From positions 667,140 through 731,139 of the forward strand of contig NZ_JQSG02000001.1 in assembly GCF_000754095.2 (NCBI RefSeq): DNA of 64,000 nt, written 5' to 3'. Origin of the DNA: Acidihalobacter prosperus. GTDB lineage: Bacteria; Pseudomonadota; Gammaproteobacteria; DSM-5130; Acidihalobacteraceae. The position numbers and the translations under genes were made by a program. This document shows positions 9,295-37,137 of the stretch, piece after piece. Every line of letters begins with the position of its first letter. Position 1 is the first letter of the stretch. The notes under the pieces were generated by a model, which worked only from the letters and a program-made list of their open reading frames with translations, searched no databases and had not been told where the DNA came from.

Positions 9295-11067
9295 ATGAGC
9301 AACTCGCAAGCACCCAGATCGCGCGAAGCCGGCAAGGCGCTGGACCGCTGGCTCCGGCAGTATGCCCCGCTGGTCAGGCTGCCGGTGACGCTGACCGCCG
9401 GGCTCGGCCTCGCCACCGGCTTTCTGATCATCCTCCAAGCCTGGCTGCTTGCGCGGATCGTCGACGCCGTCGCGATCCGTGGCCAGACACTGGATGGGGT
9501 CGCGCCACTGCTTGGATTCCTGCTCGGCGTATTCGCGCTGCGAGCACTGTTCGCCGTGTTTTCCGAGTCTGCTGCCTTTGCGATCGCGGCGCGCATCAAA
9601 CGCCATCTCCGATCGATGCTCTACGCGCGCGTCGAAGCGCTGGGTCCAGCCTGGACGCGCACACAACGCAGCGGCGACTTGGCCAACACCCTGGTCGACG
9701 GCATCGAGTCCTTGGAAAAATACTACGCGCTCTACCTGCCGCAATCGGCGCTGGCGGCCCTGATCCCGTTGTCGATTCTCGTCTTCGTATTCCCTGCCGA
9801 CTGGGTATCGGGACTGATCATGGTGCTCACGGCGCCCTTGATTCCGGCGTTCATGATCCTCATCGGCAAGGGCGCGGAACGCCTCAACCAGCGTCAATGG
9901 CGCCGGCTCGCGCGCATGAGCGCGCATTTTCTCGACATGATCGAGGGACTGACCACCCTCAAGCTGTTCAATGCCAGCCGGGCCGAAGCCGAGGTCATCG
10001 CCCGCATCTCGGATCAGTACCGGCGCAGCACCATGGCCGTGTTGCGGATCGCCTTCCTGTCATCGCTGGCGCTGGAATTTCTGGCCACGCTCAGCATCGC
10101 GATGGTCGCGGTATTCATCGGCTTCCGCCTGCTCTACGGCGACATCCATTATCTGCCCGGTTTTTTCGTGCTGCTGCTAGCGCCGGAGTTCTATCTACCG
10201 CTGCGCAACATGGGCACCCAATACCACGCCCGCATGGAGGCCATCGGCGCCGCCGAGCGCATGGTCGAGCTGATGGAAGCGAAACCGCCGGCGCCGACTT
10301 CAGAAGATGCAGCGCAGTCGCTGATGGCCGCGTCGATTTCGCTGAGTTTCGAGCGGGTGACGTTCGGCTATCCAGGCGGCGCACCCGTACTGCAAGCGCT
10401 CGATTTCGAGCTGAATGCAGGCGAACGCGTTGCGTTGGTCGGACCCAGCGGAGCCGGCAAGACGACCGTCCTCCAGCTCGTGCTCGGTTTTCTGCGACCT
10501 GATACCGGCATCATCCGCATCAACGGTAGCGCGCTCGACACGCTCGACCCCGAGGACTGGCTACGCCACCTCGCCTGGGTTCCGCAACGCCCCACCCTGT
10601 TCCATGGCAGCGTGATCGACAACATCCGCCTCGGCCACACGGCTGCGGATGCGCAGGCCATACGCGAGGCCGCACGGCGTGCGCATGCCGACGATTTCAT
10701 CGCCCGACTCCCCCAAGCTTACGACACCATGCTCGGCGATCGCGGGCAAGGGCTGTCTGGCGGGCAATTGCAGCGTATTGCGCTGGCGCGCGCATTCCTC
10801 AAGGATGCGCCGCTGCTGATTCTCGACGAGCCGACCGCCAGCCTGGACCCCGAGAGCGAACGCCTGATCACCGATGCGGTCGAGCGTCTGGCCGAAGGGC
10901 GCACCGTCCTGACGGTGGCGCACCGGCTGGAGACCGTCCGCCGCGCCGACCGCATCCTGGTGCTTGACGGCGGGCGCGTGGTCGAAAGCGGCGCGCACGC
11001 TCAACTCGTTGCGGCGGACGGGCTTTACGCCCGCCTGTGCAACGCCTACCGCGGGGAGGCCGCATGA
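9295..11067 (+). CDS. cydD: Thiol exporter ABC transporter, subunit CydD
   Basis: A 590-residue half-transporter: six-helix type-1 ABC exporter membrane domain (about 1-330) and an ATPase domain (about 350-590) with Walker A GPSGAGKTT, signature LSGGQLQRIALARAF and Walker B LLILDEPTASLD. With CydC it exports cysteine and glutathione to the periplasm and is needed to assemble cytochrome bd. Linkage to cydAB supports CydD over other ABC exporters, and the motif STLRLFN-like ETTLKLFN region (LTTLKLFNASRAE) fits the family. It overlaps cydC by four bases (ATGA), so both subunits are made in equal amounts. Confidence 0.93.
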   Translation: MSNSQAPRSREAGKALDRWLRQYAPLVRLPVTLTAGLGLATGFLIILQAWLLARIVDAVAIRGQTLDGVAPLLGFLLGVFALRALFAVFSESAAFAIAARIKRHLRSMLYARVEALGPAWTRTQRSGDLANTLVDGIESLEKYYALYLPQSALAALIPLSILVFVFPADWVSGLIMVLTAPLIPAFMILIGKGAERLNQRQWRRLARMSAHFLDMIEGLTTLKLFNASRAEAEVIARISDQYRRSTMAVLRIAFLSSLALEFLATLSIAMVAVFIGFRLLYGDIHYLPGFFVLLLAPEFYLPLRNMGTQYHARMEAIGAAERMVELMEAKPPAPTSEDAAQSLMAASISLSFERVTFGYPGGAPVLQALDFELNAGERVALVGPSGAGKTTVLQLVLGFLRPDTGIIRINGSALDTLDPEDWLRHLAWVPQRPTLFHGSVIDNIRLGHTAADAQAIREAARRAHADDFIARLPQAYDTMLGDRGQGLSGGQLQRIALARAFLKDAPLLILDEPTASLDPESERLITDAVERLAEGRTVLTVAHRLETVRRADRILVLDGGRVVESGAHAQLVAADGLYARLCNAYRGEAA

Positions 11068-29641: not shown

Positions 29642-29716
29642 GGGCGGTTAGCTCAGCGGTAGAGCACTGCCTTCACACGGCAGGGGTCACTAGTTCGATC
29701 CTAGTACCGCCCACCA
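29642..29716 (+). tRNA. tRNA-Val (anticodon CAC), integration target
   Basis: The acceptor stem GGGCGGT pairs with ACCGCCC, the D arm is GCTCAGCGGTAGAGC, the anticodon stem CTGCC/GGCAG encloses the loop TTCACAC with anticodon CAC, and the T arm contains GTTCGATCC. The CCA end is encoded (29714-29716). From position 29670 onwards the sequence is the copy brought by the integrated element, so the tRNA is a chromosome/element hybrid that remains intact. Confidence 0.97.
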
Positions 29717-29719
29717 AAT
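29670..29719 (+). repeat. Left attachment-site direct repeat (attL)
   Basis: Fifty bases running from the anticodon stem of tRNA-Val through CCA and four bases beyond, identical to 37025-37074. Confidence 0.95.
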
Positions 29720-29749
29720 TAATCCTTGTAATACAATGGATTGCGAAAG

Positions 29750-29779
29750 AAGACCATTCCGTAAGGGTGGTCTTTTTTT
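29750..29779 (+). terminator. Intrinsic terminator of tRNA-Val, inside the element
   Basis: AAGACCATTCC pairs with GGGTGGTCTT (some G-U pairs), loop GTAA, followed by seven T. A closely similar terminator lies at the same distance after the right repeat, so the element appears to bring its own replacement. Confidence 0.85.
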
Positions 29780-30240
29780 GTGCAAAATACCCTCTCGTGG
29801 ACAATTCACTGTCCACGTAGTGTCCATGGATTCCCGCTAGTACCCGTCTGTCTCTGTCCATGGATTGTCCGCATGGGCTATTCCGTACCCATTAGTTCCC
29901 CTCTGCATGTCCGTGAGTTATGGATACCCATAACTCATAACTCATAACCCTCACCCCACCGCTACCGTGTGCAAGCGGCCTGATCTAAGCGTTACCCCGA
30001 GCCTCTGTCGCACAGGCGATCTAGCGACCGCTCATCGGCTGATCGCCGCCTCACGTCAGCCATGTTTCTGTCACCCGTCCGCACACAAACTTCCTTGTCT
30101 GGTAACGAAGCACGCATCTCGAAACTATTGACTGAATGTGTTGCAAGCACATGTTTTTATTAACTATTGATGTTTGACGGCACCAGTTAACCGTGAGACA
30201 AATGCGCCAAGGGAGAGATCAACCGAGCGGGACTAAGAAC
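29780..30240. promoter_or_regulatory. Left-end control region of the element, integrase arm and operator-like repeats
   Basis: No gene is supported in these 460 bases. Repeats seen: CGTGGACA-N6-TGTCCACG (29796-29817); TGTCCATGGATT at 29821 and again at 29855; GAGTTATGG-N4-CCATAACTC (29915-29936) followed by tandem ATAACTC words. TGTCCA words recur at the right end near the integrase, so they may be integrase arm sites. The GAGTTATGG palindrome could be an operator. Near 30128 TTGACT gives a possible -35, without a good -10 at the right distance. Confidence 0.5.
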
Positions 30241-30447
30241 ATGAACACTGACAAGCTGCTTATGCCTTTTGCACAAGCGTACAAAGCGCTCTCAATGCCG
30301 CGACCAACCGCATACAAGCGCGCTCACGCGGGGAAATTCCCTGTGCCGGTTCACCAGATAAACGGACGGATGATGGTCCGATCTGCGGACTGGGCTGCAT
30401 TCGTGCAAGCACTCGATAACGACGCATTCCGAGTAGGAGGTGCGTGA
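30241..30447 (+). CDS. AlpA/excisionase-like small DNA-binding protein
   Basis: A 68-residue protein with a helix-turn-helix of the AlpA/MerR-like excisionase type: FAQAYKALSMPRPTAYKRAH followed by a wing-like KFPVPVHQINGRMMVRSADW, the pattern in which a short basic strand precedes R.ADW. Such proteins act as excisionase or regulator of integrase and replication genes. An in-frame GTG at 30193 would add 16 residues. It overlaps the next gene by one base, so it is the first gene of the replication operon. Confidence 0.75.
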   Translation: MNTDKLLMPFAQAYKALSMPRPTAYKRAHAGKFPVPVHQINGRMMVRSADWAAFVQALDNDAFRVGGA

Positions 30448-31418
30448 TGGGCTTTCTCGACATCAAAGGCACAGACGACCCCAGTTTGGACGGCATGACC
30501 AACAAGCCTAAACCGAAGCCGAGCATGCCCCGCGTGACTCTCCGCATGGCCCGGCAGCGCCCGGCACTGGATTTCGTGCTGCCGGGGCTGTTGGTCCAGA
30601 GCGTCGGGCTGATCGTGGGACAAGGCGCGGTCGGCAAATCCATGCTCTCGTTGTCAATCGCTCTGGCCGTCGCGTCTGGGCGGTCTATAGCTGGTGTCTG
30701 GAAGCCAGCCGCTACCGGGAAAGTGACGGTTGTGATGGCCGAGGATGGCGTGGACGTTCTTCAAGAGCGTATGCACTTCCTGCGGGAAGCCGAGGGCATC
30801 ACAGAGGACGAAGACGATGAAATCGACGAGCGCATGACCATCCTGAGCGGTCGAGGGTATGACCTTCGGCTAATGCAAATGGAGAACGGCAATGCCGTAC
30901 TTGGGATGTGGTATGACGATCTGCTTGAGATAGCCAAGGACCAGCGCCTTGTGATCCTTGATCCGCTCAGGTTCTTGCACGACGCAGACGAAAACAACAA
31001 CGGTGCAATGACGCGATTCATGCGCATCGTGCAGCAGATCGCCAGATTGACCGGGGCAACGTTCATCCTGTTGCATCACACGCGCAAGGGTGGTGCAGGC
31101 GACGGCGAGGATTGGGCCGCTGCATCCGGCGCAGGAGCGATCACGACAGCCGCACGGTGGCAGGCCAGCCTAAGACCGATGAACGCCACTGAGGCGGCAA
31201 ATCAGGGCGTCCCTGACGAGATGAGGCCGGGATGGGTCCGGCTTGCAGTCGATAAGATCAATTACGGCCAGCAGCCGCAGCCGACGTGGCTACAGCGAAC
31301 CGAGGGCGGCATTCTCATGCATGGAGATACCCCAAGCCATCTCAGTGAGATAGATCGAATCGCAATGCGGTACGAACGCGCAAGCAATGGAGGGGCGACC
31401 GTTGACGACCTCTACTAA
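30447..31418 (+). CDS. RepA-like replicative helicase ATPase (AAA_25 type)
   Basis: A 323-residue RecA-fold ATPase. Walker A is GQGAVGKS (residues 58-65), Walker B is RLVILDPLRFLHD and the sensor region reads TFILLHHTRKGG, as in hexameric RepA helicases of IncQ-like plasmids and in phage/plasmid AAA_25 proteins. It would unwind the origin during element replication. GTAGGAGG lies six bases before the ATG. The start overlaps the AlpA-like gene and the end overlaps the RepC-like gene, a tight operon. I cannot distinguish helicase from other AAA_25 ATPases by motif alone. Confidence 0.8.
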   Translation: MGFLDIKGTDDPSLDGMTNKPKPKPSMPRVTLRMARQRPALDFVLPGLLVQSVGLIVGQGAVGKSMLSLSIALAVASGRSIAGVWKPAATGKVTVVMAEDGVDVLQERMHFLREAEGITEDEDDEIDERMTILSGRGYDLRLMQMENGNAVLGMWYDDLLEIAKDQRLVILDPLRFLHDADENNNGAMTRFMRIVQQIARLTGATFILLHHTRKGGAGDGEDWAAASGAGAITTAARWQASLRPMNATEAANQGVPDEMRPGWVRLAVDKINYGQQPQPTWLQRTEGGILMHGDTPSHLSEIDRIAMRYERASNGGATVDDLY

Positions 31419-32289
31419 GAAGACCCGGCTGATGTGTCACGAGCTGGAAGTACGCGGGGCCATGACCCAACTAGGACGAACAAAACTGGTCACTGACCCC
31501 GAAACAGGACGGCGTGTCGCAGAGCAGCAGGAGCGGACGACCCGCACCAAATGGGCTCAGATAACGGTCAGCGGTCAGATCAATGCCGTTCACCGACAAA
31601 TCCTAGATGCGCTGTTTTTTGGTGGGTTCGAGCAAGTGCCGATGGGTGACGGTGGCGTGTCGGTAATTTGTGGCCGACGCGCGGTTCTGGCCCGGATGGG
31701 TATCGCTCAAGCCGGAGTGAAAGACAGGGCGTGGTTAGAGGACAGGATAGACGACCTGCGCCGCGCCAGCGTCCACGTGGTGCGCCCGGACGGCTCGTAC
31801 TGGACCACTGGCCTAGTATCACTGCATGGAGAGTCCTCGCGCGTTACTGACGCGCGAGGACACCCGATCTACGTCGTGACATTCACACCCGAATATGTCG
31901 AATTCCTCAAATCGGCAACAGCACCCCTGATTTGGGCGAGTGAAGAGCTTGTCTTGCTCGCCAAGCTGCCCAGCTTCACAGCCCAGGTCGTACGGTTCAT
32001 GAGGTCGCATAAACCCGGAAAGACGTGGTGGATGGACGTGATCTATCGCACCGTTGTGGGCGACAGCGAGTCAGACAGCACGACTGAAACGGCACAGCGG
32101 GTACGAAGGCGTCGGATACGTGAGCTGTTGGACCACGCAGATCAGGTCAGGCAGTTAGGTGTCGAGGTTGATAAAAAGGGCGCGAGAAGGGTCGGGGCGG
32201 ACACCCAACCCCCCATCCCCGGACACTCAGCCCCCCATCGGCGGACATCCACCCCCCCATACGCGGACATCCAGCCCCCCATCTCTTAA
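31402..32289 (+). CDS. RepC-like replication initiator with iteron-encoded C-terminal tail
   Basis: About 295 residues. The core (about 45-245) has a winged-helix pattern reminiscent of plasmid initiators: QINAVHRQILDALFFGG, VLARMGI, IYVVTFTPEYVEFL and LPSFTAQVVRFMRSHK. The last 30 residues are Pro-rich and made by four 22-bp iterons; because 22 is not a multiple of three, each copy is read in a different phase. Start choice: TTG at 31402, with GGAGGGG eight bases upstream and inside the end of repA; ATG at 31387 or 31432 are alternatives. The family call relies on gene order (helicase then initiator then iterons), as in IncQ-like plasmids. Confidence 0.65.
   Translation: MTTSTKKTRLMCHELEVRGAMTQLGRTKLVTDPETGRRVAEQQERTTRTKWAQITVSGQINAVHRQILDALFFGGFEQVPMGDGGVSVICGRRAVLARMGIAQAGVKDRAWLEDRIDDLRRASVHVVRPDGSYWTTGLVSLHGESSRVTDARGHPIYVVTFTPEYVEFLKSATAPLIWASEELVLLAKLPSFTAQVVRFMRSHKPGKTWWMDVIYRTVVGDSESDSTTETAQRVRRRRIRELLDHADQVRQLGVEVDKKGARRVGADTQPPIPGHSAPHRRTSTPPYADIQPPIS
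32199..32286 (+). repeat. Four tandem 22-bp iterons (origin of replication)
   Basis: Four contiguous copies start at 32199, 32221, 32243 and 32265. The shared core is GGACAYYCASCCCCCCAT with a variable 4-base end. They lie inside the 3' end of the initiator gene, ending right before its stop. Iterons of 20-22 bp are the initiator-binding sites of IncQ-like and other plasmids. Confidence 0.85.
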
Positions 32290-32565
32290 GTTATTTAAGC
32301 CCTCTAAGGGCGTTAAGGGGAAACGCCCAATTGGGGCGTTCCCCAACGAACAAACCAAACCCAAAGCAAAGACATGGGGCGGGGAAAAAAGCGGATGGTT
32401 TGTACTCGATCCAGACAATACGTTTTCTCGTATCCGCCGCAGGCGGCCAGCCAGAACCCCGCGCTTTTTTCCCCGCCCCTGTTGGAGTTGGATTTGAATC
32501 GACGAGTCCAAAACCACCACCCTACTCTGACGGCTAGAACCCAACAGCCCCCAGCCGGATGGTAG
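32290..32565. other. Origin-like region: AT-rich stretch and two large inverted repeats
   Basis: Directly after the iterons comes CTTAAGTTATTTAAG (AT-rich), then a near-perfect hairpin at 32311-32348 (GGGGAAACGCCC-AATT-GGGGCGTTCCCC, one bulged base, extended by CGTT/AACG), then the long inverted repeat at 32376-32479. Iterons, AT-rich region and paired stem-loops are the parts list of an IncQ-type oriV with single-strand initiation sites. No convincing gene is present. Confidence 0.6.
32376..32479. repeat. 18-bp perfect inverted repeat with 68-base spacer holding nested hairpins
   Basis: GGGGCGGGGAAAAAAGCG (32376-32393) is the exact reverse complement of 32462-32479. The spacer contains ATACG-N6-CGTAT-type and CCGCC-GCA-GGCGG stems. 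Possible roles are single-strand initiation site, transfer origin or a transcript end; the poly-A/poly-T within the arms could also end transcription in both directions. Confidence 0.7.
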
Positions 32566-32880
32566 CTAGGTGTTCTCAACCCTTCCTATGGCAAATCGAG
32601 AAGAAGAGCCTCGGATTACAACGTCTCCCCGATACCCACATTGACGGACAAGAAACGAAACATAATCGTCAATGCTTGGCTCTTGCTTGAGCGTATTATT
32701 CTCGGTCCATAGCTCGCTGACTGTATCGTCTGGGCTAACGACTGATGCGTAGTAGTCCGAAGTGCCGGGCTTGGGGTGGATCAACACAAGCTTTATGTGG
32801 TCAGTGTTGATTGCGCGTTGAAATGCGCCGACAGTTACAGGCTCGGCAGATGGCTTTATGGTCAAAACGGGCTTGTTCAT
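32566..32880 (-). CDS. Hypothetical protein of the element
   Basis: A 104-residue soluble protein starting MNKPVLTIKPSAEP, with an acidic middle and a single Cys (RQCGYRGDVVIRG). I do not recognise it. The ATG at 32880 is chosen because GGAG lies about ten bases upstream; the open frame could be extended by 34 residues from 32982 but without a ribosome-binding site. It points toward the origin region and is opposite to the rep operon. Confidence 0.55.
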   Translation of the reverse strand: MNKPVLTIKPSAEPVTVGAFQRAINTDHIKLVLIHPKPGTSDYYASVVSPDDTVSELWTENNTLKQEPSIDDYVSFLVRQCGYRGDVVIRGSSSRFAIGRVENT

Positions 32881-32997
32881 TTTTAGTTGCTCCATATGGA
32901 TTGGGTTTAGTGAAAGGACGCCTTTAATGGCCTCCATATAAATATGGTAACCAGCGCAAGCTTGTGCCTTTGTGGCGTCCAATCCATGTGAAACGAG

Positions 32998-33025
32998 AAA
33001 GGCCCGGTCTATCCGGGCTTTTTTT
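32998..33025 (+). terminator. Hairpin terminator between small element genes
   Basis: GCCCGG (33002-33007) and CCGGGC (33013-33018) enclose TCTAT, followed by seven T on the plus strand and preceded by AAA. The T-run overlaps the stop codon of the minus-strand gene ending at 33024. On the minus strand the T-run is weaker, so direction is ambiguous. Confidence 0.6.
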
Positions 33026-33512
33026 AGTCGTCGTCATCGAGGTCAGGCGGAGGCGGCGGCTCGGTCAACTTATGCCCCAAGGTCACAACCTTCTGCGGCG
33101 GCATTACCGGCGGTGGTTTGTAGTCCTCCCGCCAGCTCGGCGGCACGCTGCCCTCGAACTTCGCATTCGCCTGCTTGACCGGGGTTGGCGCTGCCGCAGG
33201 CCGGGCCTGCGTGGCGGCGGGCGCTGGGCGGCCCTGCGTGGCCGCAGGAACCGCAGGAACGACCCGGCCCGACGTGGCCGCTGTCTGCTGCTCGCCGGGG
33301 AGCGGGCGCTGCACGGGTGCCAAGCGCCCCTTCTCAACCGCCTTGCGGGCGTTGACCACCAGACGGCGCAGGCGCTCAGGGTTGCCGTCGCCACACTCGA
33401 CCACCGGAGCAAGTACCTCGGCAATCTGGCCCCACGTGCAGCCGATACGTCGAGCGCCGTCGATGGCGTCAAGATAAGCCGCTAATTTCGCAGTCTTGGC
33501 CTTGGGCTCCAT
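33024..33512 (-). CDS. Paralogous small protein A: HTH-like N-terminus, long Pro/Ala tail
   Basis: A 162-residue protein. The first 65 residues (MEPKAKTAKLAAYLDAIDGA, then TWGQIAEVLAPVV and RLRRLVVNARKAVEKG) look like a helix-turn-helix and closely match the neighbouring upstream gene. The rest is a low-complexity Pro/Ala/Thr tail ending in PPPPPDLDDDD, probably disordered with an acidic end. GAGGGG precedes the start. It lies 11 bases after its paralogue in the same operon. Possible roles are repressor, partition or relaxosome accessory protein; none is demonstrated. Confidence 0.7.
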   Translation of the reverse strand: MEPKAKTAKLAAYLDAIDGARRIGCTWGQIAEVLAPVVECGDGNPERLRRLVVNARKAVEKGRLAPVQRPLPGEQQTAATSGRVVPAVPAATQGRPAPAATQARPAAAPTPVKQANAKFEGSVPPSWREDYKPPPVMPPQKVVTLGHKLTEPPPPPDLDDDD

Positions 33513-33523
33513 TGTCGTACCCC

Positions 33524-33784
33524 TCAGTTAAGACGACCGTCAGGTGGCGGCGTCGCGTCGCCAAGTCGTGGGTCGATTAGTGGTCGTGGTGGCGGGGCGT
33601 ACAGCCCTTTTGCGACCGCTCGCCGAGCCCGACCTATTGTCGTTTGCAGGGACGCGGGGCTCATATTTCCCCACGCCCAAGAACCCTGCTCAGCGATCTC
33701 GCCCCACGTCAGCCCTTGGCGGCGGGCATCGTTAATCGCGTCCAATCGAGCGGCAACGCGGACAGTTTTGTTCTTCGGTTCCAT
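33524..33784 (-). CDS. Paralogous small protein B: HTH-like
   Basis: An 86-residue protein starting MEPKNKTVRVAARLDAINDA, with TWGEIAEQGSWAWGN and SLQTTIGRARRAVAKG; about half of the first 60 residues match the downstream gene in the same positions. It lacks the long tail. GGAGG lies seven bases before the ATG. A TTGACA-N17-TGTGAT promoter and a perfect palindrome lie upstream. The pair arose by tandem duplication. Function unknown. Confidence 0.72.
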   Translation of the reverse strand: MEPKNKTVRVAARLDAINDARRQGLTWGEIAEQGSWAWGNMSPASLQTTIGRARRAVAKGLYAPPPRPLIDPRLGDATPPPDGRLN

Positions 33785-33869
33785 AAGCCACCTCCGATGA
33801 CTCAGATCAACAACGAAACAACCTTGATCAGGTACTTATTCGGTATTAAATCGGTACTACTACAACATC

Positions 33870-33898
33870 ATCACAACAAACACTTTTACCGATGTCAA
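33870..33898 (-). promoter_or_regulatory. Sigma-70 promoter of the paralogous pair
   Basis: On the minus strand TTGACA (33893-33898) and TGTGAT (33870-33875) are 17 bases apart, in AT-rich DNA about 85 bases upstream of the first gene. Confidence 0.6.
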
Positions 33899-33940
33899 CA
33901 ATTATTTAACAAGTATTCAGACAACACTCAACAAGAACTC

Positions 33941-33959
33941 CGTTCACTTTCAGTGAACG
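33941..33959. promoter_or_regulatory. Palindromic operator CGTTCACT-N3-AGTGAACG
   Basis: A perfect 8-bp inverted repeat with a 3-base centre, about 40 bp upstream of the -35 box of the paralogous pair and about 200 bp before the toxin promoter. The spacing is typical of a dimeric HTH repressor. Confidence 0.6.
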
Positions 33960-34141
33960 TATAGAAATTCCCGAATCTCCTACGTCGATTCTAAGAGACG
34001 CACCAACGCATCCTCCGGATGCCTTGGTGCCTGCTCCGCAGCCTAAACCTCGCTCCGCTCGGCCAACTCGCCCCTCCGGGTCTCGCCCGTCGCCGCTTCG
34101 CGTCTCCGAAACCGCCCTCCGGGCCGCCTGCTTCACTCAGC
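33960..34141. other. Non-coding GC-rich patch of iterated hairpins
   Basis: No gene is supported. The strongest element is a hairpin at 34000-34030: GCACCAA, one mismatch, GCATCC, loop TCC, then GGATGC and TTGGTGC. Several short stems follow (CCCCTCCGGG, CGCTTCGCG, GCCCTCCGGGC). The composition differs from the AT-rich DNA to its left. Confidence 0.5.
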
Positions 34142-34169
34142 TTGCGGGCCATACAAGATTTTGTATAAT
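34142..34169 (+). promoter_or_regulatory. Sigma-70 promoter of the toxin-antitoxin pair
   Basis: TTGCGG (34142-34147), 16-base spacer, TATAAT (34164-34169). The expected start of transcription is at about 34176, which is the GTG start codon itself, so the toxin mRNA would be leaderless or nearly so. Confidence 0.7.
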
Positions 34170-34175
34170 CGGTTT

Positions 34176-34514
34176 GTGAAGACACCGAAGCTAGTCGAGT
34201 TCAGGGGCAGCGCGTTGGACGATCTGCGTGCTTTCCCGTCAGACGCCCGCCGAGAGGCCGGCCATCAAATCGACCAAGTGCAGAACGGGCGTGACCCCGA
34301 CGACTGGAAACCTATGCCGACCGTTGGGAAGGGTGTTCGGGAAATCCGTGTCCGCGACGCCACGGGCGCGTTCCGCGTGATCTACGTCGCCAAGCTGGCC
34401 GAGGCCGTCTACGTCCTGCACTGCTTCCAGAAGAAGACGCAGAAGACGGCCAAGAGTGACTTGGAGTTGGCTGGGCAGCGCTACCGGGATTTATTGAAGG
34501 AGCTAGGACGATGA
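34176..34514 (+). CDS. HigB/RelE-like toxin (Gp49 family)
   Basis: A 112-residue basic protein with the Gp49/HigB-like fold signature: FRGSALDDLRAFPSDARREAG, then KPMPTVGKGVREIRVRD, FRVIYVAKLAEAVYVLHCF and KKTQKTAKSDLELAGQRYRD. Relatives are ribosome-dependent mRNA endonucleases. The GTG at 34176 is chosen because the frame upstream runs through the TATAAT box. The gene overlaps its antitoxin by four bases, toxin first, the usual higBA order. The pair would help keep the element in the cell. Confidence 0.9.
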   Translation: MKTPKLVEFRGSALDDLRAFPSDARREAGHQIDQVQNGRDPDDWKPMPTVGKGVREIRVRDATGAFRVIYVAKLAEAVYVLHCFQKKTQKTAKSDLELAGQRYRDLLKELGR

Positions 34515-34792
34515 GCAACGAACGATATGCAAGCGTGTGGGACGCCATTGAGGACACCCCCGAGGCCGCCGAGAACATGAAGCTGCGCTCGGCGCTCATG
34601 ATGGCGCTGAAAAAGCATATTGAGGCTGCCGGGCTGAGTCAGGCGCAGGCCGCCAAGCTGTTTGGCGTGACCCAACCACGCGTGTCCGACTTGATGCGCG
34701 GCAAGATCAATCTGTTTGGCCTTGATGCACTGGTGAACATGGCGGCGGCTGCCGGGATGCATGTCGAACTGCGAGTGAAGGATGCGGCTTGA
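34511..34792 (+). CDS. HigA/XRE-like antitoxin
   Basis: A 93-residue protein with a Cro/C1-type helix-turn-helix LSQAQAAKLFGVTQPRVSDL followed by MRGKINLFGLDALVNMAAAA. It would neutralise the preceding toxin and repress the shared promoter. AGGACG precedes the ATG within the end of the toxin gene. The N-terminal 30 acidic residues are probably the toxin-binding part. Confidence 0.92.
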   Translation: MSNERYASVWDAIEDTPEAAENMKLRSALMMALKKHIEAAGLSQAQAAKLFGVTQPRVSDLMRGKINLFGLDALVNMAAAAGMHVELRVKDAA

Positions 34793-34838
34793 GCCAATCA
34801 CCCACCCTCGCTTCGCCTTTCCCCACAGCCGAGCTGAT

Positions 34839-35714
34839 TTAGATGGGGTTTGCGGGCGCTGGCATAGCAGTTTCGGCTGCGGCTAGCACCTCTTCTATCG
34901 CGCTAACGTGCCAGACACGGCCAAGGTCTGACTCAGAATTTACTCTACCTGAGTAGATTCCGAGGAATTCCCACTTAGCCACCCCTGCTGCCATTGTGGT
35001 CGAAATCCGTCCATTGTCGTTTAGATAAGTAAATACGTTGGTTCTATAGGCAATCACAGGGGAACCCGATTGACCTTGCCGAGTGCGACAGTCAATGAGA
35101 AAGGTTTGGTTGTCTGGCGTCACGATACCAAGTTCCTGAGCCATAAACCCGGTGGCCCATATAGGAAAGTGTCCAGTGGAAGACAACCCAAAGGGAAATC
35201 CTATTACGCTAATTGGCTCTGCGGGCCTTACTACCAACTTCTGGCGGTCAAGGTCAGTCTTTAGGTAATAGGGTAATTTTTGGACATCACTTCCCCATTT
35301 TAAATTTAGTGCAACCACATCGGCCGATGCACCTAGCCTCGGATGTTCAATCCACCATGGCGAATCGTCTTCCTTATATAGAGGCAGGCTGACGCAGTGC
35401 CACTCTCCGCGTTCCAGAGGGGGTTTGTGGAAGTAGATGCGGATAGTGTCTGGAATGGCGCCGTGTTTTTTATCCAGACACTCGCCGGTTTCTTGGTGCC
35501 GACCTGTGACGTTATGGCGGTTTGTAATCAATGCACAGTGCGAAGATTGATCATTTGCGACAAGAAATGCCGTACCGCTGCTCAGGAGGACATCCTTGAA
35601 GTACATTTCTATGTAGAGCGACTTGAGCGAAGGAATCTCTAAGCCCATGGTTAATGCGCTCCCTTGGGCGGGGATCATATCAGGGGGTATGGTGGATGGA
35701 TCAGTACTCATCAT
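34839..35714 (-). CDS. Cytoplasmic trypsin-like serine protease (element cargo)
   Basis: A 291-residue protein without a signal peptide. It has the trypsin-fold triad: His67 in ALITNRHNV, Asp132 in ASADVVALN and Ser216 in RQGQSGSPV, plus the usual GTAFLV strand before the His. There is no PDZ domain, unlike DegP. AGGAG lies five bases before the ATG at 35714 (or eight before 35711). Trypsin-like proteases without export signals occur in several phage-defence operons, but no partner gene is adjacent here: its neighbours are a toxin-antitoxin pair and the integrase. Substrate unknown. Confidence 0.8.
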   Translation of the reverse strand: MMSTDPSTIPPDMIPAQGSALTMGLEIPSLKSLYIEMYFKDVLLSSGTAFLVANDQSSHCALITNRHNVTGRHQETGECLDKKHGAIPDTIRIYFHKPPLERGEWHCVSLPLYKEDDSPWWIEHPRLGASADVVALNLKWGSDVQKLPYYLKTDLDRQKLVVRPAEPISVIGFPFGLSSTGHFPIWATGFMAQELGIVTPDNQTFLIDCRTRQGQSGSPVIAYRTNVFTYLNDNGRISTTMAAGVAKWEFLGIYSGRVNSESDLGRVWHVSAIEEVLAAAETAMPAPANPI

Positions 35715-35839
35715 AAATTCTCCTGCTTAGCTTCCAAGAATTATGCAGTCCTGCCGACTGTCCCTTTTGCCATTTCCCCATCTAACAAGGGATACCTCAT
35801 AACGCTATTCCCGCAGGTCATGCGTACCCCATTACTAAC

Positions 35840-36928
35840 TTACCCCAGCTTTGCCGCCAAATCCTCAGCCCGTGGATGATAGTAGCGTTTGAGCATCCGT
35901 AAGTCCTTGTGGCCAGTGATCGCCGCAAGCTCGATCAAGTTCGGCACCTTCTCTGCGAGCCGACTGGTTGCCTCGTGGCGTAGATCATGGAAATGCAGAT
36001 CATCCAGCCCCGCCCTCTTGGTTGCCCTCACCCATGAGAGCTTGAGCGCGTTGGGCGTCACCGGAAATACTCGGTCATCCATAGCGGGTTTCTGACGGCG
36101 CAGCGCAGTCACCTTCGTCGCCTTCTGCTGTTCATCGCGCTTGGCCTTCAAGTCTTCGAGCACAGCCACGGCCCGGCTCGACAGTGGCACGTCACGCGCC
36201 TCACCGTTCTTCGTATCCGGCAGGTGAGCCACACGGCGGCGCAGATCGACATTCGGCCACGTCAGCCCCAGCAGTTCACCCCGCCGCATGGCGGTTTCAA
36301 GGGCCAGCATCACAAGCGGGCGCATATACGGGTTTTTCGTGCCTCGTCGGTACTTCTTGCCGTCCTCGCGCTCGCCCTCGGCGCTATGGTCGCCCAGAGC
36401 CGTCAGCAAGCGCGATTCCTCATCAACCTCCAGCCGACGATTACGCGCAGGCGGGTCTTTCGGCCTGCGGATGCCGGATACGGAGTTTTCGACCTCAATC
36501 ATCAGTTCGCGCCGCGCCCAGTTGAGAACGGCGGATACGATGTTCAACTCGCGGTTGACCGTGGAGCCCTTGGCACCGGCAGCAAGCCGACGATCCCGCC
36601 ATTCGGCCAACACGAGCGGTGAGAGGGCCGCTAGACGGTATTGGGCTATGGGATCGCCCATTAGGGTGCGAACACGCAGCGCGGCGGTTTCAGCGCCTTT
36701 CTGTGACGGCACCACGTCCAAGCGGTAGCGATCCAGCAAAGCGTATAGGGTAGTAGTTTCCGCGCTGGAGCGGTCGCGCCACACGCCGCGATCCATCTCC
36801 GATTCCTGCGCCCTTGCCCATGCGGCAGCATCCTCGCGCCGGAGGAAGGTTTTTCCTCGTGATGGGTAGCCCTGACGCCGGATTTTCGCTTGCCACCGGC
36901 CCGAATGAAGTTGCGTGATCGTTGCCAT
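35840..36928 (-). CDS. Tyrosine recombinase integrase
   Basis: A 362-residue phage-type integrase. Arm-binding N-terminal part (about 1-60, GRWQAKIRRQGYPSRGKTF), core-binding domain (about 60-165), and catalytic domain with the first Arg in ALETAMRRGELLGL, the HxxR box HDLRHEATSRL, His in ITGHKDLRM and the nucleophile Tyr in LKRYYHPRAEDL. It catalyses exchange between the element and the tRNA-Val site. It lies at the right end, 97 bases from attR, and is transcribed inward, with TGTCCAC repeats just upstream. Confidence 0.95.
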   Translation of the reverse strand: MATITQLHSGRWQAKIRRQGYPSRGKTFLRREDAAAWARAQESEMDRGVWRDRSSAETTTLYALLDRYRLDVVPSQKGAETAALRVRTLMGDPIAQYRLAALSPLVLAEWRDRRLAAGAKGSTVNRELNIVSAVLNWARRELMIEVENSVSGIRRPKDPPARNRRLEVDEESRLLTALGDHSAEGEREDGKKYRRGTKNPYMRPLVMLALETAMRRGELLGLTWPNVDLRRRVAHLPDTKNGEARDVPLSSRAVAVLEDLKAKRDEQQKATKVTALRRQKPAMDDRVFPVTPNALKLSWVRATKRAGLDDLHFHDLRHEATSRLAEKVPNLIELAAITGHKDLRMLKRYYHPRAEDLAAKLG

Positions 36929-36935
36929 TTTGCGG

Positions 36936-36969
36936 GGGCCTCACTGTCCACAAGCTGTCCACGAGGCCC
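36936..36969. promoter_or_regulatory. Integrase arm-site repeats near attR
   Basis: Two tandem 11-bp units CTGTCCACAAG and CTGTCCACGAG (36944-36965) are enclosed by the inverted repeat GGGCCTC/GAGGCCC. The same TGTCCA words occur at the left end. They overlap the likely integrase promoter, so binding would also regulate the gene. Confidence 0.55.
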
Positions 36970-37024
36970 TATTATAACACCACTAATCACTTAACAATCA
37001 TTGAGTTATAAGACTTTAATTAGC

Positions 37025-37074
37025 CCTTCACACGGCAGGGGTCACTAGTTCGATCCTAGTACCGCCCACCAAAT
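37025..37074 (+). repeat. Right attachment-site direct repeat (attR)
   Basis: Fifty bases identical to 29670-29719. The tRNA 5' half is missing here, so this is the displaced original 3' end of tRNA-Val. Confidence 0.95.
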
Positions 37075-37106
37075 AAAGGCTTATAAATCTGCCTGTTATA
37101 AAAAAA

Positions 37107-37137
37107 AAAGACCACCTAACCATGGTGGTCTTTTTTT
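37107..37137 (+). terminator. Original tRNA-Val terminator, right of attR
   Basis: AAAGACCACC pairs with GGTGGTCTTT around TAACCAT, followed by T-run. It matches the terminator after the left copy over TGGTCTTTTTTTGT. Confidence 0.85.

Follow-up and report, generated by a model that had tools for sequence, protein, structure and literature searches.

Two stem-loop structures, a near-perfect hairpin (hairpin 1, 32311-32348) and a large inverted repeat (32376-32479), neither assigned to a strand, follow the iterons of an integrated element in the 64-kb stretch of DNA analyzed here (hereafter, the window). These stem-loops are a real and strongly non-random feature of the DNA. We propose that they serve an IncQ-like origin as its region of single-strand initiation (priming), where either the host or a primase acting in trans would start synthesis, and we give this reading, whose functional part is inferred, a probability of roughly 0.55.

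The 7.4-kb element (29670-37074) is integrated at a tRNA-Val gene and bounded by a 50-bp perfect direct repeat, in which attL (29670-29719, + strand) covers the 3′ part of the tRNA gene (29642-29716) and attR (37025-37074, + strand) duplicates 50 bp of the 3′ end of tRNA-Val. It encodes a small AlpA/excisionase-like HTH protein (30193-30447, + strand; PHROG 66 "excisionase and transcriptional regulator," E = 8.7e−5; the HTH_17 match is weak and under the cut-off), an IncQ-like AAA helicase, RepA (30444-31418, + strand; PF13481, E = 2.9e−36), and a divergent RepC-like initiator (31387-32289, + strand). RepA shares 32% identity with the IncQ RepA annotated in plasmids and 44% with its best chromosomal relative (L016, Sulfuricella). 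The RepC-like protein matched no Pfam, NCBIfam, or PHROG family and is recognized by a profile of RepC proteins of related elements (probability of 97%, E = 3.7e−11). Farther downstream are a HigB/HigA-like toxin-antitoxin pair (34161-34792, + strand; PF05973 and PF13744), which probably functions in maintenance of the element, and a tyrosine integrase (35840-36928, − strand; PF00589, E = 2.5e−30), along with several small genes without an assigned family. A trypsin-like protein (34839-35714, − strand; PF13365, PHROG 7688) neighbors the HigB/HigA-like pair and is possibly a defence or maintenance cargo. Two adjacent small proteins (33024-33512 and 33524-33784, − strand) have in common the motif MEPKxKT...DARRxGxTWGxIAE and appear to be paralogues, for which no family was found. 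Terminator-like sequences (GGTGGTCTTTTTTT) follow both tRNA-Val copies (29766-29779 and 37103-37137), and tRNA alone scored above threshold in an Rfam scan. Searching family members for the junction recovered tRNA-Val with no conserved downstream flank, and no empty site.

Four 22-nt iterons (32196-32283, + strand) and some 20 bp of AT-rich DNA (32284-32303, no strand), from its sequence the likely unwinding region, precede the stem-loops. All four iterons lie within the repC frame, at its 3′ end, and therefore also encode the proline-rich C terminus of RepC, a point absent from the preliminary description of this DNA. That description had placed iterons, AT-rich stretch, hairpin 1, and an 18-bp perfect inverted repeat with nested stems in this order, and both stem-loops were found at the positions it gave. 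The core of hairpin 1 (32317-32344) consists of 11 bp with one bulged A (GGGGAA-(A)-CGCCC, loop AATTG, GGGCG-TTCCCC) and is lengthened by CGTT/AACG to the full 32311-32348; it can also adopt an alternative fold, GGGCGTTAAGGGGAAACGCCC. A third small hairpin (GCCCTCTAAGGGC, 32299-32311), previously unmentioned, abuts it. The large repeat has perfect 18-bp arms (32376-32393, GGGGCGGGGAAAAAAGCG, and 32462-32479, CGCTTTTTTCCCCGCCCC) that enclose 68 nt with two short nested hairpins, and the arms remain 88% complementary when extended to 25 bp. No other perfect inverted repeat in the window is as long (loops of up to 130 considered), the runner-up having 14 bp. Folded as single-stranded DNA, positions 32284-32500 (217 nt) reach −55.4 kcal/mol on the + strand and −54.4 kcal/mol on the − strand (z = −6.44 and −6.31, respectively), values that none of 200 shuffles equaled.

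The structures lie between convergent frames, with repC ending at 32289 on the + strand and a small open reading frame (32566-32982) on the − strand, and T6/A6 tracts occur within the arms of the large repeat. The large repeat, perhaps together with hairpin 1, could therefore be a bidirectional terminator, an outcome that the preliminary description had itself set against its priming hypothesis. We consider this improbable, because no terminator-like site, with its compact GC stem and directly following T run, was found at the repeats. The T tracts are instead inside the 18-bp arms, around a loop of 68 nt, and no T run follows either end of hairpin 1. Moreover, the arm GGGGCGGGGAAAAAAGCG occurs in the 3.36-Mb genome only at the two sites of the large repeat, even with up to 2 mismatches allowed.

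A profile scan of genome contigs yielded 80 RepA loci, the majority with genes for integrase, AlpA, RepA, and RepC. The DNA that follows the iterons was folded for 26 other origins (240 bp each; 160 bp in L063 and 300 bp in RSF1010). The median z score of these origins is −3.5, compared to −0.37 for random windows of the same loci and −0.9 for 110 regions after other genes (Mann-Whitney test against the origins, P = 7e−9, which overstates the certainty since these 26 share ancestry and do not count as independent samples). The lowest z score belongs to the origin in the window (z = −8.4 over 240 bp). Two hairpins covary in the ten relatives that could be aligned, with 97.6% of cells paired and 6 pairs changed on both sides; none of 500 shuffles scored as high on either measure, and slid structures scored far lower. 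These values describe the hairpins of the relatives and not the window's own, because no close relative was found, either with RepC in genome contigs or with RepA in viral contigs. A RepC search among related genomes gave one weak match only, and blastn of the window origin against plasmids gave two chance-level matches only. Structured DNA after the iterons, with covariation, is thus the rule in related elements. The preliminary description had named absence of the repeats from related elements that replicate as a refutation of its idea, and this test did not refute it.

A conserved site is present in 19 groups, some of them closely related: an ACGCCA arm preceded by a hairpin, which is either ATCGGCCnnnGGCCGAT or a variant of it with compensated changes. 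Five of the 19 (L032, L034, L038, L052, and L054) have the site a second time in divergent orientation, as a TGGCGT arm and then another hairpin, with one site facing outward on each strand, an arrangement like that of ssiA and ssiB in RSF1010. In the window, the divergent arm-plus-hairpin pair is incomplete, with no strong hairpin beside the right arm. L052 additionally contains a run of ACAA repeats (9844-9898) within the large inverted repeat of its origin. The strong fold on both strands of the window, like the conserved hairpins beside the iterons of the relatives, would fit any origin-linked function, and the region may serve the replicon as a structured element for control or binding (of a cruciform or Rep kind, for control of copy number, or for termination of replication) and not in priming. 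We judge such a role rather unlikely, given the agreement with the RSF1010 ssi region in layout and spacing and given the outward site on each strand in five groups of relatives, which is what strand-start sites would be expected to show.

The ssi sites of IncQ plasmids are normally used by the IncQ primase. The element was described at the outset as having no primase gene, and indeed neither a primase nor a relaxase was recognizable in it with Pfam, NCBIfam, PHROGs, or tblastn with three RepB proteins. A search of the rest of the genome for a matching primase or relaxase had been proposed. RSF1010-type RepB′ was not found in the host genome (a search with no positive control in that genome), and two loci, L100 (G000:C2:541000-560000) and L101 (G000:C6:361000-380000), encode a TrwC-type relaxase and a coupling protein. 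The tyrosine integrase of L100 looks similar to that of L052, and the L052 integrase is 37% identical to the integrase in the window. RepB′ was found in RSF1010, pRAS3, plasmid-like contigs, L016, and L019, and in none of the integrase-plus-AlpA relatives examined.

Given the two TrwC-type loci, and given that IMEs like GIsul2, which have no relaxase of their own, are believed to rely on that of a helper (PMC5704250), one of the repeats could be an oriT mobilized by the relaxase of another element, as the preliminary description had offered as an alternative. We found no positive evidence for this and regard it as very unlikely. Known nic motifs are absent near the repeats, and the few IncP/IncI-like matches all fall in repA or repC coding DNA. 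Comparison of the element with the two TrwC loci gave only chance-level matches of 23 to 26 nt, away from the repeats, and no MOBP relaxase was found in the genome.

If the stem-loops are a priming region, the integrase and the AlpA-like protein would excise the element at tRNA-Val, RepC would bind the 22-nt iterons and open the AT-rich stretch, and the RepA helicase would enter and unwind the DNA. Hairpin 1 and the large inverted repeat would then form in the exposed single strands, and synthesis of each strand would be primed at these folded structures. The order of these steps is borrowed from IncQ plasmids (PMC6925257), and both excision and replication of the element are inferred. Because a RepB-type primase is not recognizable in the element or in its integrase-plus-AlpA relatives, the primer would, by elimination, most likely be made by the host primase and less likely by RepB supplied in trans. 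Since L016, the closest relative by RepA, encodes RepB beside its origin, the absence of a primase in the window may also mean that the replicon has decayed. More tentatively, we conjecture that widespread IncQ-derived integrative elements, including GIsul2 and that of the window, might need no more than RepA and RepC to replicate by strand displacement, having dropped RepB and re-fitted their ssi hairpins to the host primase.

How IMEs persist once they are excised has been described as unexplored (PMC5704250). Elements with RepA and RepC, GIsul2 among them, occur in many genera, some with resistance genes, and the interest of the present observations lies in the class: IncQ-type origins that keep a conserved, covarying, ssi-like structure without a primase gene. 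The class raises the question of whether strands are started at the hairpins by the host primase or by a primase borrowed in trans.

The element in the window is a divergent, primase-less member of this known class of GIsul2-like int-alpA-repA-repC integrative elements. It has the tyrosine integrase, the AlpA-like protein, RepA, RepC, and the att repeats, as well as iterons followed by strongly structured DNA, and RepB primase was not found in it, as in the class; like GIsul2 itself, it is without a recognizable relaxase. It differs from GIsul2 and the elements related to it in its 7.4-kb length, its different integrase, its divergent RepC, its location at tRNA-Val and not at the guaA 3′ end used by GIsul2 itself, the lack of recognized trbJ/trbL-like genes, and the lack, downstream of the iterons, of the conserved site made up of an ATCGGCC-type hairpin and an ACGCCA arm. 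Within the class, 24 loci form one group (among L012 and L069-L095) in which RepC and integrase are identical or nearly so across many genera, a near-identity that points to one integrative element having spread widely and very recently. This group corresponds to GIsul2 as matched by gene order and literature, without alignment to a named GIsul2 record (PMC9376610, PMC5704250).

The chromosomal element L016 resembles that of the window in its RepA, in a related RepC, and in iterons followed by hairpins. Unlike the window, it has genes for a RepB primase (PF16793, E = 8.7e−12) and a TrwB-like coupling protein directly after the origin, and its overall fold is weak (z = −1.3). An apparent common motif (AAACCCAA..AAAGAC) was rejected, being no better than in shuffles.

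In IncQ plasmids, ssiA and ssiB are the sites of the initiation mechanism (PMC6925257; PMC4434180), and their published rule is a hairpin of about 21 nt with GTG in a 13-nt 3′ tail, one per strand (PMC4434180). A scan with this rule found no site in the window and recovered one ssi of RSF1010 as a control. By the tested rule, the region occupies the place of the ssi sites without being a member of the ssi family in the strict sense. The proposal of an IncQ-like origin with ssi sites therefore stands for position and layout and fails for the RSF1010 sequence rule. The alignment with IncQ-like plasmids that had been called for gave a match to RSF1010 in layout and spacing, and no convincing sequence alignment with the origin of any relative. 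Reversed RSF1010, the sole outlier in the origin alignments, was rejected as a GC-rich block.

Among the parts of an IncQ origin, iterons beside an AT-rich stretch, repA, and repC are all present in the window; RepB or RepB′ primase is not encoded in the element, and none was found in the genome. RSF1010 has a RepC unlike that of the window, whose sequence family is another, L010-like one, and it possesses the RepB′ primase and Mob genes that the element lacks. The right arm of its large repeat leads outward to a hairpin whose 3′ tail contains GTG; this agrees with the described ssiA (PMC4434180) and has no counterpart in the window. In the same orientation, the iterons of RSF1010 are followed by stretches rich in GC and in AT, by small hairpins, and finally by a large inverted repeat (AGGGGGAAAGGC / GCCTTTCCCCCT) whose arms enclose 70 nt, compared to 68 nt in the window. 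Common to both are the helicase RepA, the initiator RepC, and large-repeat arms with a G-run and an A-tract.
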